NCBI RefSeq assembly: GCF_900128455.1
Contig: NZ_LT635783.1
Location: 1,142,919-1,206,918, forward strand
Reading direction: 5' to 3'
From: Bacteroides mediterraneensis
GTDB lineage: Bacteria > Bacteroidota > Bacteroidia > Bacteroidales > Bacteroidaceae
DNA: 64,000 nt
Shown: piece by piece, positions 30,504 through 50,878 of the stretch
Layout: each line of letters opens with the position of its first letter
Numbering within the stretch: position 1 is the first letter of the stretch
The notes under the pieces: generated by a model
The model's input: only the letters and a program-made list of their open reading frames with translations
What the model was told of the DNA's origin: nothing
Database searches by the model: none
Position numbers and translations under genes: made by a program

Positions 30504-30542
30504 ATGTTGTACAACCTAAATGTATCCTGAGATAATAAAAAT

Positions 30543-30628
30543 GTAACATTTTCAGTGGTTATGTAACACGGCATGCAGTTGTTGGTAATGCTAAATAACT
30601 TGCATGAGTCAAATAAAAAATATATTTG
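30543..30628 (+). promoter_or_regulatory. Probable regulated promoter of the first susC operon
   Basis: A -7 element TATATTTG (30621-30628) lies 135 bases before susC. Upstream are GTAACATT (30543-30550), GTAACACG (30563-30570) and GTAATGCT (30585-30592), the last exactly 28 bases from the -7. The same 28-base gap and related GTAAC boxes occur at 49731-49795 and 49923-49987. The intergenic stretch 30311-30763 otherwise holds only the small-RNA candidate. Confidence 0.55.
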
Positions 30629-30763: not shown

Positions 30764-33700
30764 ATGAAAAACATAAGACAAAAGTTTCTCGAGAATAATT
30801 CTTCCAGGCAGAAGATATTTCTCATGCGAAGCCACATTTTCTTTTTGTTATTTCTATTCTGTAGCGTTTCGTTGATGGCGCAGAATGGTATTCTGGTGAA
30901 AGGAAAGGTGCTTGACGCAAACGATGAGCCCTTGATTGGTGCGGCTATTGTATTAAAAGGTAATACAAATGTGGGAACGGTCGCCGACTTGGACGGTAAT
31001 TTTTCACTTCAAGTCCCCAGTCAGAATTCTGTGCTGACGGTTTCTTATCTGGGAATGACTCCACAAGATGTGAAGGTAAATGGAAAAACAATGATTGTGG
31101 TTGTATTGCGCGAGGACAGTGAAGTGCTGGATGAAGTGGTGGTTGTCGGTTATGGACAACAGAAAAAGGCCTCAGTTGTGGGAGCGATTACACAGACATC
31201 TTCTAAAGTGTTGGAACGCGCGGGTGGTGTTTCCGATTTGGGTTCTGCATTGACAGGTAACTTGCCAGGTGTCATTACTACGGCTTCTACCGGTATGCCG
31301 GGTGAAGAGGATCCGCAGATTGTAATTCGTGGAGCAAGTTCATGGAACAATAGCTCTCCTTTGATTCTGGTGGATGGTATTGAACGTCCGATGTCGGGAA
31401 TTGATGTCAATTCAGTGGAATCTATTTCCGTATTGAAAGATGCGTCAGCCACAGCAGTGTATGGTGTAAAAGGTGCAAACGGTGTAATCTTGATTACAAC
31501 AAAGCGTGGTAAAGAAGGTAAGGCTACCATTAATGTGGGTGGTAGTATGGCATTGAAGATGCCTTCCAAATTGCCTAACAAACTGGATTCATACGATGCG
31601 TTCCAATTGCGTAATGATGCAGTGGAATATGAATTGGGTTTGACACCCGATTCATGGATGTACATGATGTCGCAAGAACAGATGAATAAGTATCGTAATC
31701 CGGCCAATCAGGCAGAAGCGGAACGCTATCCTAATATTGACTGGGCAGACTGGATGTTTAAGGATTATGCATTCTCTGAAAATGCAAACGTCAGTGTGAG
31801 TGGTGGTACACAGTTCGTGAAGTATTATGCTGCCATTGACTACCAGCATGAAGGTGACTTGTTCAAGGAATATGATAACGGTCGTGGTTATCAGACAGCG
31901 TATGGATATAACCGTGTGAACATGCGTAGTAACCTTGACTTCCAGCTGACTAAGACTACCTTATTGAAAACCAATCTTTCCGGTTCTCATGGCGTGAAGC
32001 AAGGACCTCGTACGGATTATGAATATAACATCTGGGGAAGTGCCTATACAACTCCTCCTAATGTATTTTATCCCCGTTATGAAGATGGAACTTGGGGATA
32101 TGACCCGATTAACAATGCCAATAACTCGGTAGCCGGACTGGCTTTGGCTGGGCAGAATACACGTACTACCACCCGTCTGACCACAGACTTCACATTGGAG
32201 CAGAAACTGGATTTCATCGTAAAGGGTTTGAGTGCCAAAGCTTCTATCTCCTGGGATAACGTTTTCTATGAACAGAACCGTGGTGTAAGCTCAACAGACC
32301 AGGCTTTGTATAAATACATTAATCCGGAAACAGGAGCTGTCAGCTATAACCCCAGTCAGGGTAGTCATAATTTTGATTTCCATGAACAAATCAACTGGGT
32401 GGCTGAAGGAGGTGCCATCGATGACAATGCTACGGAACGTCATCTATATTATTCTGCTCAGATTGATTATAACAATACATTCGGTAAACATACGGTAGGT
32501 GCCATGGGATTGTTCAGCCGCCAGGAACGTGCGAAAGGTAGTATTGTTCCGAACTATCGCGAAGACTGGGCTTTCCGTGTGACTTATAACTATGCCAACA
32601 AGTACTTCTTGGAATATAATGGTGCGTATAACGGTTCTGATAAGTTCAGTGCTGATAACCGTTTCGTATTCTTCAACTCTGGTGCTCTTGGTTGGATGGT
32701 TAGTGAAGAAAAATTCATGAAGAAAATCAAGTTCCTTGATATGTTGAAGCTGAGAGCTTCTTACGGTGAAATCGGTAATGACGTAATCGGTGACGAATGG
32801 GATACTACTCGCCGCTGGTTGTATATGGATCAGTGGGAAACTGGAGGCAATATTGCGACCGGTTTGTATAATGTGGCCAGCCCTTACACTTTCTATCGCC
32901 AGAAAACGGTAGGTAATACGGACATTCACTGGGAAGTGGTTCGTAAGTTCAATTTTGGTATCGATTATTCATTCTTGGGAGGTTTGTTTGCCGGTAATGT
33001 GGAAATCTTTAGAGACAGACGTTCCGACATTCTTATCAGCGGTTCCGATCGTGCCATGCCTTCTTACTTCGGCGGTATTGTCAGTGCACCTTGGGTAAAT
33101 ATGGGTAAGGTTAAGAATCGCGGTTATGAGCTGGAACTTCGTTTCAACAAGACTTTGAGAAACAGCTTGCATTTGTGGGCCAATATGAACATGACGCATG
33201 CGGTCAATGAGGTGATTGAAGCAGACGATCCAGAATTGCTTCCTGATTATCAGAAAGATGCAGGAAAGGCCATCGGCCAGACCCATACTTATGTAGACCA
33301 TGGTTACACACAAACGATGGATGACGTATACGGAAGTACGGCTTTTGAATCAAACGATGACCAGAAACTGCCTGGTACTTACTATATTCTCGATTACAAC
33401 GGTGATGGTGTGATTAACTCTTACGACCAGATTCCTTACGGATATTCAGGCAGTCCTCAGAACACATACAGTGCTTCTCTCGGATTCGATTATAAAGGAT
33501 GGAGTTTCTTCATCCAGTTCTACGGAGTTAATAATGTAACCCGTCAGGTGGTGTTCTCTACATTCGGTCAGAAACAGTTGATTGCCTACGATGAAGGTTC
33601 ACGCTGGAGTAAGTATAACGCAAATCCGGATGTGCCGATGCCTCGTTTTGGCTCTACCACCAATAGTTATTATGATGCAGCCCGTTACTTCTATGACGGT

Positions 33701-33928
33701 TCATATATTCGTTTGAAGAATGTTGAGTTGTCTTATACCTTTACTAGCGGCTGGATTAAGAGTTTGGGACTTTCTAATTTGAAACTATATGTTAATGGTA
33801 ATAACCTTTGGGTATGGACTCGTATGCCTGATGACCGTGAATCAAACTTTGCAGGTACCGGTTGGGCTTCACAAGGTGCTTATCCTACGGTGAAACGTAT
33901 TAACTTCGGTTTAAAATTCACATTATAA
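30764..33928 (+). CDS. SusC/RagA-type TonB-linked outer-membrane transporter
   Basis: A 1054-residue TonB-dependent transporter that imports oligosaccharides with its SusD lid. A long basic N-terminus and signal peptide end at about residue 39 (SVSLMAQ). A carboxypeptidase-regulatory-like domain at 45-115 (ILVKGKVLDANDEPLIGAAI) is followed by the TonB-box motif DEVVVVGYG at 123-131, the plug (SVESISVLKDASATAVYG, GVILITTKRG) and a 22-stranded barrel ending in INFGLKFTL. First gene of the xylan locus and probably co-transcribed with the next five genes; spacing to susD is one to thirteen bases. Confidence 0.96.
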   Translation: MKNIRQKFLENNSSRQKIFLMRSHIFFLLFLFCSVSLMAQNGILVKGKVLDANDEPLIGAAIVLKGNTNVGTVADLDGNFSLQVPSQNSVLTVSYLGMTPQDVKVNGKTMIVVVLREDSEVLDEVVVVGYGQQKKASVVGAITQTSSKVLERAGGVSDLGSALTGNLPGVITTASTGMPGEEDPQIVIRGASSWNNSSPLILVDGIERPMSGIDVNSVESISVLKDASATAVYGVKGANGVILITTKRGKEGKATINVGGSMALKMPSKLPNKLDSYDAFQLRNDAVEYELGLTPDSWMYMMSQEQMNKYRNPANQAEAERYPNIDWADWMFKDYAFSENANVSVSGGTQFVKYYAAIDYQHEGDLFKEYDNGRGYQTAYGYNRVNMRSNLDFQLTKTTLLKTNLSGSHGVKQGPRTDYEYNIWGSAYTTPPNVFYPRYEDGTWGYDPINNANNSVAGLALAGQNTRTTTRLTTDFTLEQKLDFIVKGLSAKASISWDNVFYEQNRGVSSTDQALYKYINPETGAVSYNPSQGSHNFDFHEQINWVAEGGAIDDNATERHLYYSAQIDYNNTFGKHTVGAMGLFSRQERAKGSIVPNYREDWAFRVTYNYANKYFLEYNGAYNGSDKFSADNRFVFFNSGALGWMVSEEKFMKKIKFLDMLKLRASYGEIGNDVIGDEWDTTRRWLYMDQWETGGNIATGLYNVASPYTFYRQKTVGNTDIHWEVVRKFNFGIDYSFLGGLFAGNVEIFRDRRSDILISGSDRAMPSYFGGIVSAPWVNMGKVKNRGYELELRFNKTLRNSLHLWANMNMTHAVNEVIEADDPELLPDYQKDAGKAIGQTHTYVDHGYTQTMDDVYGSTAFESNDDQKLPGTYYILDYNGDGVINSYDQIPYGYSGSPQNTYSASLGFDYKGWSFFIQFYGVNNVTRQVVFSTFGQKQLIAYDEGSRWSKYNANPDVPMPRFGSTTNSYYDAARYFYDGSYIRLKNVELSYTFTSGWIKSLGLSNLKLYVNGNNLWVWTRMPDDRESNFAGTGWASQGAYPTVKRINFGLKFTL

Positions 33929-47951: not shown

Positions 47952-49664
47952 TTATAGCGCTTCCGCATCATTGGATGAGGTGGCATATAATCCAATCATG
48001 GCACCTGTAAATCCTCCGGCTACGTTGGTCGAGAGGATGTCCCCAGACACAGTTCCTCCTACGGTCTGATAGTTGTCATCTTTTACGGAGTAGCTGAATG
48101 TATAGTTGTCGCCTTCAGCGTTTACCCGCAGGCTGACAGGTGCATCCTTTTCAATCTTTTCGCTGGCAAGAGTAGAAGAGTTTCCGTTTTCAGTCCGTTG
48201 CAGGACGATGTAGTTTTCTTCCCCTTTCTTGGTTAGCCCGAATACGTAGTTGAACTTCTCACTTTGGTAGCAGGCGATTCCGGCAAGATCTTTTTCAGTG
48301 CGGGGAACATATTTCAGAGTCGTAGTGACGGTGAAATTAATGTGCTGCTGACGATAGAACAGAGTGGAAGTGGGAGCCACAGCCTTGATATTGGTTTCAT
48401 AAGGCGTTATTTTCAGTCCTTCTGCCGTGGTGGAAATGAATCCTTCTTTAGCTCCTCTTACTCCTACCCAGCGATAATCGAGTGGACTCTGTGTGAATGT
48501 CTCTGTGTATGTGAAGTTTCCATTAGGGAAATATCCGTTCTTTCCCGTTTCGTTTTTCACACCTTTGGGCAGAGTCAGTTTAGGCTGGATAGGCTCCAGG
48601 CCACCTTTAAATACGGGGAAAGTACCGCTCCAGTCGACAGGCAGCATGAACGTCTCCCGTCCGGTATTTACTCGGTTGGCTTCATTGGGTCGGATAGCCA
48701 GGAAAACACCGTAGTATTGTCCGTCAGGACCTTCCACCAAATCGGCATGACCAGCCCAATCTACCTTGAATGGGCGTTCTGCAGGAAGATGTCTCTGTGA
48801 AAGAATCGGATTTTCAGGAGCCGGTTTGAAAGGTCCTTGAGGATTGTCGCTGATGAAGATGACTTCGCTGTGCCAGCCACCTGTTCCTCCTTCTGCGCAC
48901 ATGAGGTAGTATTTCCCGTCTTTTTTATAAAGGTGGGGAGCTTCTATCCAGATGGGCTTCTGAGATAAATCTACTCCTCCGTTCACTACTACTTTGTCTG
49001 TACCAGGGATTATCTGGTCTTTTTCCACGTCATACTCCCACACTTTGATTACTCTGTGTCCTTCGTATAACGGCTTTTCAGGTGCATCGTTATGTGTGAC
49101 GTATGCTTTACCGTTGTCATCAAAGAAAATATCCGGATCGATACCTTCGAAATTCAGCTTGATTGGGTCGCCCCATCCTTTCATGGGGTCTTTAGTCTTT
49201 ACAATCATGTTTCCCATACCTCCTGAGAATTGGGTCGTAATCATATAGAAGGTATCGTTGTAGGGATTGTATCGTATGGTGGGGGCGTAAATGCCGGCGC
49301 TGATACCAGAATCTTCTACTTTGAGTTGTGAGGGGCGGTCGAGCACATGTCCAATCTGCTTCCAGTTGACCAAATCGGTGGAGTGGAAAATGGGCACTCC
49401 GGGGTTGATGGCAAAAGAAGAGCATACCAGGTAATAGTCGGTACCTTTTTTGCAGATACTGGGGTCAGGATAGCAGCCCTGTAGTATCGGATTGTAGAAT
49501 TCGCCTTCGTTGAGTGGATTTTTTTCGTACACCGCATCTTTTCCTGTGTAGGTGAACTGACCGAAAACCGGGACTCCAGGTTCAGGCATAGTCACCTTGT
49601 TACTACAGGAGGCGGCCAGAAGACCTAATGTCCCTAGTGTAAGTAGTTTAAATTGATTTTTCAT
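47952..49664 (-). CDS. GH43 lipoprotein (arabinofuranosidase/xylosidase) with C-terminal sandwich
   Basis: A 570-residue lipoprotein (lipobox LLAASC, Cys 20). The residues after Cys lack acidic pairs, so it may face the periplasm. Residues about 55-380 are a five-bladed GH43 propeller: base Asp in GCYPDPSICKKG, pKa-modulating Asp in GIDPDIFFDDNG, acid Glu in WIEAPHLYKKDGKYYL. Residues about 395-565 are the GH43_C2-like beta-sandwich (YRWVGVRGAKEGFI). GH43 enzymes remove arabinose or xylose from xylan. The only minus-strand gene of the locus, with its own promoter sharing boxes with the divergent esterase operon. Confidence 0.92.
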   Translation of the reverse strand: MKNQFKLLTLGTLGLLAASCSNKVTMPEPGVPVFGQFTYTGKDAVYEKNPLNEGEFYNPILQGCYPDPSICKKGTDYYLVCSSFAINPGVPIFHSTDLVNWKQIGHVLDRPSQLKVEDSGISAGIYAPTIRYNPYNDTFYMITTQFSGGMGNMIVKTKDPMKGWGDPIKLNFEGIDPDIFFDDNGKAYVTHNDAPEKPLYEGHRVIKVWEYDVEKDQIIPGTDKVVVNGGVDLSQKPIWIEAPHLYKKDGKYYLMCAEGGTGGWHSEVIFISDNPQGPFKPAPENPILSQRHLPAERPFKVDWAGHADLVEGPDGQYYGVFLAIRPNEANRVNTGRETFMLPVDWSGTFPVFKGGLEPIQPKLTLPKGVKNETGKNGYFPNGNFTYTETFTQSPLDYRWVGVRGAKEGFISTTAEGLKITPYETNIKAVAPTSTLFYRQQHINFTVTTTLKYVPRTEKDLAGIACYQSEKFNYVFGLTKKGEENYIVLQRTENGNSSTLASEKIEKDAPVSLRVNAEGDNYTFSYSVKDDNYQTVGGTVSGDILSTNVAGGFTGAMIGLYATSSNDAEAL

Positions 49665-49730: not shown

Positions 49731-49795
49731 CAAATGTACGTGTTTTGTATGGGGAGGATGTGACGGTATGTTGCAGATTTCTTATTGTATGTTAC
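49731..49795 (-). promoter_or_regulatory. Regulated promoter of the GH43 lipoprotein gene
   Basis: Read on the minus strand: GTAACATA (49795-49788), 13 bases, GCAACATA (49774-49767), 28 bases, then -7 TACATTTG (49738-49731). The direct repeat has a 21-bp period. The same arrangement is found on plus at 49923-49987. This divergent region, 49665-50002, carries no gene. Confidence 0.75.
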
Positions 49796-49922
49796 GATGT
49801 GGCTGGTATTGCAGGATAAGGTTGTGATTTCTGTAAATATCTGTAAAACAAAATATTATAAAGAAAAATGTAATCTGAGAATAGGTAAAATGTACGCTTT
49901 GTAAATGGAATAGGTGCTGTGT

Positions 49923-49987
49923 GTAACATAAACAAAAAGACTAGTAACGTAAAATCTTGTAGTTTTTCTATGTGTGAAGTATTTTTG
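49923..49987 (+). promoter_or_regulatory. Regulated promoter of the esterase/GH95/GH43 operon
   Basis: GTAACATA (49923-49930), 13 bases, GTAACGTA (49944-49951), 28 bases, then -7 TATTTTTG (49980-49987). Repeat period and gap to -7 equal those of the divergent promoter exactly. No -33 element, as expected for an activator-dependent promoter. Confidence 0.75.
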
Positions 49988-50002: not shown

Positions 50003-50878
50003 ATGTCTATGAATAAACATGTTTTTATTGTTATTTTGTCTGTTTTAGGCTTGATTCCTGTCTCATTGTTTTCACGTAGCAGGGTAGTGAATGATACGAT
50101 TTTTAGTAATAAATTGAATACGGAAAGAGTCTGTTCCATTTATCTGCCTCCTTCATACGGTGAAGTTCCGGGAAAGAAATATCCGGTACTTTATCTTTTC
50201 CATGGCATGTCGCAGACCAATCAGGATTGGGTGTGGCGCGGACATGTGCAGGAAGTGGCCGACCGTTTGATTTATGCACAGGAGGCCAGTGAGATGATTA
50301 TTGTGATGCCGGACGCAGGTGGTGATATTTACAAGGAAGTCTGGAACGGCTTTTTTAACATGCCGGGTTGGCTTTATGAGGATTTCTTTTTTGAAGAATT
50401 CTTGCCTCATGTGGAAAGTAAATACAATATAATCGGTGATAAGGAAAATCGTGCCGTAGCCGGGTTGTCTATGGGCGGTGGCGGGGCCACAGGTTATGGC
50501 TTGTGGCATGCAGATAAGTTTGCTTCTGTTTATGCCATGAGTGCGCTGATGTCTATTCCGGAAGAAGGGGCGGCTCGTTTTGAAAATCCAAACAGCAAAC
50601 TGGCTATATTAACCCGTGCCGTGATAGACCGCAGTTGCATAAAACGTGTGGCAGAGGCGGAGGAAAATACGGTTCAGGCATTAAAATCGGTGAGATGGTT
50701 CATTGACTGTGGAGATGATGATTTTTTGCTTGATCGGAATATTGAGTTCTTTCAGGCTATGCGTAAGGCAGGTATCCCCTGTCAGTTCAGAGTTAGAGAC
50801 GGTGGGCACGACTGGGAATATTGGCATTCTGCTTTGTATATGTGTCTGCCTTTTGTGTCAAGGACTTTTGATAAATAA
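50003..50878 (+). CDS. CE1-type carbohydrate esterase (feruloyl or acetyl xylan esterase-like)
   Basis: A 291-residue exported alpha/beta-hydrolase of the esterase D/CE1 group. Motifs: VLYLFHGMSQTNQDW with the oxyanion region, AGLSMGGGGATGYGL with nucleophile Ser, DCGDDDFLL with the acid, and RDGGHDWEYWHSAL with the catalytic His. The family removes ferulate or acetyl groups from xylan side chains. I place the start at 50003 (MSMNKHVFIVILSVLGLIP signal); upstream ATG codons would lie before or inside the -7 element. First gene of a long plus-strand operon; GH95 follows by 19 bases. Confidence 0.87.
   Translation: MSMNKHVFIVILSVLGLIPVSLFSRSRVVNDTIFSNKLNTERVCSIYLPPSYGEVPGKKYPVLYLFHGMSQTNQDWVWRGHVQEVADRLIYAQEASEMIIVMPDAGGDIYKEVWNGFFNMPGWLYEDFFFEEFLPHVESKYNIIGDKENRAVAGLSMGGGGATGYGLWHADKFASVYAMSALMSIPEEGAARFENPNSKLAILTRAVIDRSCIKRVAEAEENTVQALKSVRWFIDCGDDDFLLDRNIEFFQAMRKAGIPCQFRVRDGGHDWEYWHSALYMCLPFVSRTFDK

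Follow-up and report, generated by a model that had tools for sequence, protein, structure and literature searches.

A predicted operator of repeated boxes 21 bp apart at a Bacteroides mediterraneensis xylan locus and its candidate hybrid two-component regulator

At the araI1-araI2 site of Escherichia coli, direct-repeat half-sites of AraC lie ~21 bp apart, with the proximal one beside or over the -35 region, and the bound dimer activates transcription. More generally, AraC-type activators contact polymerase from just upstream of the -33 region. The E. coli system differs from the boxes of hybrid two-component systems (HTCSs) in phylum, sigma factor and box sequence, and AraC is a one-component sugar sensor. 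In Bacteroides thetaiotaomicron, HTCS operators were predicted as two-site direct repeats with an average distance of 21 bp, and binding of a dimer to one DNA face via these repeats was proposed (Ravcheev et al. 2013, PMC3878776). Direct repeats 21 bp apart were likewise found here upstream of operons in a HTCS-encoding locus. The sixteen HTCS motifs of that set include none named for xylan in the accessible text, where the word xylan occurs once, and are described there as two sites per motif without a distance to the -7 element, whereas the xylan locus carries up to four boxes with the last one 28 bp (N28) from it. SusR-type operators in the same source are also direct repeats, placed before starch-type loci of the same bacteria, but with repeat centres 67 or 77 bp apart as against 21 bp at the xylan locus.

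The response-regulator parts of the HTCSs BT4124 and BT4663 were reported to shift bt4114 and bt4662 promoter DNA (PMC11253607). Both have an AraC/XylS-type domain fused to a receiver, as does the HTCS of the xylan locus, and in the accessible text their binding is phosphorylation-dependent and directed to promoters of susCD homologs for glycans other than xylan. The S/CHIP motif, reported in that text to keep the DNA-binding domain inactive, is common elsewhere; the receiver domain of the xylan-locus HTCS (L005) reads NHIP where most have S/CHIP. HTCS direct repeats of ~21 bp are thus already known, and the xylan box set with its constant distance to the promoter looks new: a xylan HTCS operator in this phylum was not found in the open-access main-text literature searched (PMC3878776, PMC12125979, PMC11253607, PMC10766802 and PMC7366714 included), nor, within the same scope, were a constant N28 from a HTCS box to the -7 element or four-box arrays.

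Boxes and spacings at the promoters of the xylan locus

Most of a xylan utilization locus lies inside the window (the whole stretch of 64,000 nucleotides analysed here), where Pfam families identified two SusC/SusD pairs, a BT_3987-type protein, GH10, GH115 and a Sde182-type protein, together with a minus-strand GH43 gene divergent from plus-strand genes for an esterase, GH95, GH43, GH127, a thioredoxin-type protein, GH97 and GH43-CBM6. Beyond the window the locus continues with GH31, GH43-CBM6, GH31 and a SASA-type esterase, followed by a minus-strand HTCS and, divergent from it at the locus end, a second SASA-type esterase. A DDE transposase gene (L005:15615-16817) lies just past the locus. 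The original prediction had placed the regulator outside the window and had expected a hybrid two-component protein with an AraC-type end. The HTCS found ~8 kb past the window end, closing the same locus, agrees on both counts: it has 1373 aa (L005:7935-12056) and carries the domains Reg_prop, Y_Y_Y, HisKA, HATPase_c, Response_reg and HTH_18/HTH_AraC. The genes of the window that concern us are as follows.

47952 to 49664, minus strand: GH43 gene, predicted target (Pfam Glyco_hydro_43, GH43_C2)
50009 to 50878, plus strand: esterase gene, first of a predicted plus-strand operon (Pfam Esterase; start codon at 50009 or 50003, by eye)
30764 to 33928, plus strand: first SusC gene (susC1) of the xylan locus, predicted target (Pfam CarbopepD_reg_2, Plug)

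By direct sequence reading, the minus promoter runs from 49795 to 49731 as GTAACATA-N13-GCAACATA-N28-TACATTTG, and the plus promoter from 49923 to 49987 as GTAACATA-N13-GTAACGTA-N28-TATTTTTG. In each, a pair of GYAACRTA boxes with a 21-bp spacing is followed after 28 bp by a TAnnTTTG -7 element, and the agreement of both spacings to the base on which the original prediction was built is present exactly as written. The elements are listed below with their conservation in the 13 loci described further on.

49788 to 49795, minus strand: distal box GTAACATA of the GH43 gene promoter; GTAAC in 13/13 loci
49767 to 49774, minus strand: proximal box GCAACATA of the GH43 gene promoter, 21 bp from the distal box; GNAAC in 13/13 loci
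49731 to 49738, minus strand: -7 element TACATTTG of the GH43 gene promoter, 28 bp past the proximal box; TAnnTTTG in 13/13 loci
49923 to 49930, plus strand: distal box GTAACATA of the esterase operon promoter; GTAAC in 12/13 loci
49944 to 49951, plus strand: proximal box GTAACGTA of the esterase operon promoter; GTAAC in 11/13 loci, degenerate and hand-placed in L024 and L028
49980 to 49987, plus strand: -7 element TATTTTTG of the esterase operon promoter, 28 bp past the proximal box; TAnnTTTG in 13/13 loci, two of them in a hand-set register

When the window was searched for GYAACRTA-N13-GYAACRTA with up to 2 mismatches, only the two promoters were matched; shuffled windows gave a mean of 0.22 matches in the same search, and 2 matches were reached in 3 of 100 shuffles. 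Across the whole genome (4,075,696 bases), a search that the original prediction had proposed, the exact pair is unique to these two promoters. With up to 1 mismatch, 4 genome matches (2 exact, 2 with 1 mismatch) were obtained versus 3 for the reversed pattern, so the 1-mismatch matches are at chance level. Since the pattern was derived from the two sites themselves, the independent test is conservation in other species.

Starting from the closest esterases in named genomes (best 80 kept), 12 loci with the same divergent GH43/esterase pair were collected, among them loci of Bacteroides mediterraneensis, Phocaeicola plebeius and B. caecigallinarum. Both strands of the 13 loci (window included) were scanned with the box distance left free between 20 and 22 and the best-scoring pair taken (0-3 mismatches of 16). 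The box distance was 21 bp in 26/26 promoters, and TAnnTTTG stood at N28 in 24/26; the pair and its N28 are thereby kept in the orthologous xylan loci, where the original prediction had suggested looking. On the plus side of L024 and L028 the best pair lies one unit further up, and the next unit down is degenerate (GTATC, GTCTC) and at N28; once these two promoters are put into that hand-set register, all 26 have TAnnTTTG at N28. Invariant columns were counted in 7 representatives (L024 in its hand-set register), with GTAAC twice, TA and TTTG as the core: 14/16 core columns were invariant versus 11/99 surrounding columns at the plus promoter, and 15/16 versus 5/99 at the minus promoter. Between the -7 element and the coding start the distance is variable (14-28 and 45-73 bp), in contrast to the constant 21 bp and N28. 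Plus promoters also have a conserved TTG near the -33 position. A HTCS of at least 52% identity was recovered in 6 of the 12 orthologous genomes, one of ~40% in five and none in one, perhaps partly owing to broken contigs. Separately, a conserved AAAT/AAAC block (window 49901-49908 and orthologs) was seen ~20 bp upstream of the distal box of the esterase promoter, and TGTAC or TGTAT occurs ~10 bp beyond it; the block is perhaps a degenerate third box or the site of another regulator.

The two strings of the original prediction were exact, and the feature extends beyond its two promoters, as further promoters of the xylan locus carry boxes. The 19 gene starts of the locus were scanned, and array calls were then made by eye. 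Beyond the two promoters above, arrays that end at N28 were recognized only before susC1 and before the HTCS-adjacent esterase. The susC1 promoter (30522-30628) reads GTATCCTG-21-GTAACATT-20-GTAACACG-22-GTAATGCT-N28-TATATTTG, and the HTCS-adjacent esterase promoter (L005:12236-12341) reads GTAACATT-21-GTTACAAC-20-GTAACAAT-21-GTATCCTG-N28-TATTTTTG. The best susC1 pair of the scan is at 20 bp, and its pair at the HTCS-adjacent esterase scores only 12.0. Two other pairs, each scoring 13.0, were set aside: one at a GH31 gene, which has no fit to N28, and one on the HTCS strand, which is a portion of the HTCS-adjacent esterase array read backwards.

30522 to 30529, plus strand: outermost degenerate box GTATCCTG of the susC array, weak alone; its position fits boxes at -98 to -100 of related susC promoters
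30543 to 30550, plus strand: box GTAACATT of the susC array (scan and sequence reading)
30563 to 30570, plus strand: box GTAACACG of the susC array, 20 bp from the previous box
30585 to 30592, plus strand: proximal degenerate box GTAATGCT of the susC array (sequence reading)
30621 to 30628, plus strand: -7 element TATATTTG of the susC promoter, 28 bp past the proximal box

Boxes (GTAACR in at least 5/6 positions) were then counted in 11 susC promoters, those of the window and ten relatives, from 21 loci. Excluded were L153, with insufficient upstream sequence, L169, which lacks TAnnTTTG, and the eight more distant loci L161-L168; in L150 and L152, which have two TAnnTTTG sites each, the fitting one was used. 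Boxes clustered at -36 (7), -57/-58 (9), -77/-78 (8) and -98/-99 (8) from the -7 element. No array was seen at L164, L165 and L168, 3 of the 21 loci and among those excluded from the count. The four-box esterase array recurs in three orthologs (L120-L122; by eye), with gaps off by one base in two. The site as originally described, two boxes, stands at the given promoters; elsewhere the array often has more than two. Four GCAACATY boxes with an exact 22-bp period were also observed upstream of a HTCS paralog (L129), on the HTCS strand, and are possibly autoregulatory.

Occurrence of the spacing in the genome and the family

When the N28 and -7 element were added to the pair, five promoters of the genome matched with up to 1 mismatch, three of the xylan locus and two of a SusC/SusD/GH32 locus, which bears on the original prediction's condition that the pattern not be frequent at unrelated genes. 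With up to two mismatches, 7 matches were obtained versus 6 for the reversed control (a total, not split by mismatch), and the susC1 promoter was not among them; 2-mismatch matches are therefore uninformative, and only the five were used. The GH32-locus promoters (C1:818315 and 825300) precede a SusC gene and a 781-aa gene and have GTAAC/GAAAC/GCAAC boxes 21 bp apart with N28. Another HTCS lies near this locus (C1:835453), with a DNA-binding domain 34% identical to that of the xylan-locus HTCS. Since at least one other HTCS locus shares the GTAAC core, that core is not enough to identify the xylan regulator; in their extended form the boxes of the two loci are distinct, GTAACRTA at the xylan locus and GATGWAACATT at the GH32 locus. 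Among 298 genomes, GATGWAACATT was at N28 in 8/15 rows of the window's genus and 10/55 rows overall, many of the N28 rows being orthologous promoters; it also recurs at N22 (7), N36 (6) and N43 (6), from repeated or orthologous sites. Both GH32-locus promoters (G000:C1:818270-818380 and 825255-825365; L278) have direct-repeat pairs arranged head to head, which together make up a long near-palindrome; the distance to the -7 element is again N28.

The arrangement was also searched without a box sequence in 33 candidate promoters at 11 other HTCS neighbourhoods of the same genome. In this set of only 33, repeats at 21 bp (5) were no commoner than at 23 bp (5), and none of the 21-bp repeats ends at 28; strong repeats do occur at L247 and L244, with periods of 21 and 22 bp. 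The arrangement thus did not emerge from this small set, which if anything leans against its generality.

The family (presumably Bacteroidaceae) was represented by 399 genomes in a search for GTAAC-N16-GTAAC-N{16,46}-TAnnTTTG, and 87 of them had a match at some spacing. Ten listed rows of a dispersed repeat in one genome (G355) were removed before the spacing histogram was made; coordinates were hand-copied, and the genomes are related, so that a binomial P for the peak is no true probability. That genome has at least ten dispersed copies of the GTAACCTAAAAAAAATTATTAGTAACATA-type repeat, with a spacing other than N28. Among the 140 places in the matches listed, N28 accounted for 77 and N29 for 27, of which genus g14 contributed 24, and every other spacing was found at 0 to 9 places, mostly 0 to 2. 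The reversed-pattern control also matches often overall, and the evidence is therefore the spacing peak and not the total.

Forty of the 104 N28/N29 places were fetched: 18/72 from g14, all 14 that other genera contributed, and 8 from the window's genus, for which ten GH43/esterase orthologs were left out. An open frame of at least 120 aa was present within 700 bp at 38/40; these fell into 22 similarity clusters, and Pfam families were assigned to 29/38. Outside g14, 15/19 downstream genes encode glycoside hydrolases (GH8, GH43, GH115, GH3), esterases or SusC-type receptors, and the other 4/19 a fimbrillin-like protein, an outer-membrane barrel, a HAD hydrolase and one protein without family. 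In g14, 4/10 are carbohydrate-related (two GH115, one GH97, one MFS_2 sugar transporter); the other 6/10 are fasciclin (2), CotH, DUF4114 and two without family, which counts against a xylan role. On the question of unrelated genes, the original prediction is thus borne out in the other genera of the family, where the genes mostly fit xylan, and not in g14, where 6/10 do not. Because only 4/10 downstream genes are carbohydrate-related, g14 is weaker support for a xylan role, and this genus may use the boxes differently.

A preference for N28 was rejected outside the family: among 121 listed places outside it, from a search of 392 genomes of the order, GTAAC pairs with the 21-bp spacing stood at N28 in 5 and at N18 in 48. 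The N18 pairs lie exactly 10 bp closer to TAnnTTTG and have a longer consensus like GTAACTTATTnnnAAGTTGTGTAACAC (e.g., L268, L271, L273, L277). Several of the genes downstream encode small lipoproteins (N-termini judged by eye) and are not PUL genes; perhaps these pairs mark a stress-type regulon.

Candidate regulator and alternative readings

We take the boxes to be the operator of the xylan locus's own HTCS, acting as activator, with a probability of roughly 0.8, a reading drawn from sequence comparison. Xylan-derived oligosaccharides would be sensed by the periplasmic propeller domain of the HTCS, and phospho-transfer would then free its AraC-type domain. Two HTCS subunits may bind two boxes on one helix face, two turns apart, and the four-box promoters (first susC, esterase beside the HTCS) would take two dimers. 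With 28 bp between the end of the proximal box and the -7 element, and with TAnnTTTG at -7 and TTTG near -33 reported for Bacteroides promoters (PMC7366714), the proximal subunit would be placed immediately upstream of the -33 region, able to touch RNA polymerase, a position that suggests an activator. Against this reading count the 350 bp upstream of the HTCS gene, in which TAnnTTTG was not found, the hand-set registers of L024 and L028, the recovery of a HTCS of at least 52% identity in only 6 of the 12 orthologous genomes, the susC loci that show no array, the g14 genes outside carbohydrate use and the near-identical boxes of the GH32 locus.

Relatedness of the HTCSs bears on which regulator is meant. 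A HTCS-type cytoplasmic region was present in 11 of the 40 fetched motif loci, 10/11 at 39-55% identity to that of the xylan-locus HTCS, several of them partial. Complete DNA-binding domains, all compared with a single tool, were available for eight motif-adjacent HTCSs, seven of them at 51-68% identity to that of the xylan-locus HTCS; 12 other recovered HTCS domains of the same genome were at 27-40%. The exception, L224, had a cytoplasmic identity of 34% and a DNA-binding domain identity of 32%. In a tree of 50 DNA-binding domains (rows picked by similarity to the query, many on long branches), the xylan-locus domain, its six closest relatives and the 7 motif-adjacent ones fell into one clade (98/88), which excludes L224 and the 12 other domains of the genome and also contains 23 rows without a shown link to the boxes. 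Tree and identities support, short of proof, regulators of this clade as those that would bind the boxes.

An unlikely alternative is that the boxes bind another regulator, AraC-type or otherwise (the GH32-locus HTCS or a one-component protein), the neighbouring HTCS using other sites. The GH32-locus promoters, which have boxes 21 bp apart with N28 and another HTCS nearby, speak for it, as do the recurrence of GATGWAACATT at N28 and the GTAAC pairs that precede other genes outside the family. It is opposed by the motif-adjacent HTCSs of other genomes, all but one of the 11 being relatives of the xylan-locus HTCS, by the low identity of the GH32-locus DNA-binding domain and by the difference between the extended boxes. 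Far less probable is a core-promoter or upstream element of the housekeeping sigma factor without a dedicated activator. Such an element would account for the constant distance to the -7 element in the free scan and for the conserved TTG near -33 on the plus side; however, the genome has no further copy of the exact pair, while the -7 element is general and belongs to 81% of primary starts in B. thetaiotaomicron (PMC7366714), the multi-box arrays fit an activator, and the preferred distance outside the family is N18. Chance likeness of two AT-rich promoter regions, for which the 3 in 100 shuffled windows with two matches might be cited, is refuted by conservation in the orthologous loci and stands against the family-wide spacing peak as well.

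Regulation by the xylan-locus HTCS, as preferred here, may be one instance of a wider arrangement. HTCS activators of this family may share a layout of two or four boxes 20-22 bp apart, the last 28 bp (29 in some lineages) before TAnnTTTG; we offer this tentatively, at slightly short of an even chance. If general, the N28 rule would be a more interesting result than a single xylan operator. The regulons of many orphan HTCSs would then be readable from genome text alone (20/36 B. thetaiotaomicron HTCSs were without known DNA sites in 2013; PMC3878776), and box number would set promoter strength or cooperativity, the susC-type transporter operons having the longest arrays. HTCSs form a major class of glycan regulators in gut Bacteroides, and xylan ranks among the main dietary fibres. 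For one xylan locus the analysis provides a predicted operator, a target list and a candidate regulator, and the constant N28 before the -7 element, which recurs in dozens of genomes, is a simple, testable rule for HTCS regulons and for the design of sugar-inducible promoters.
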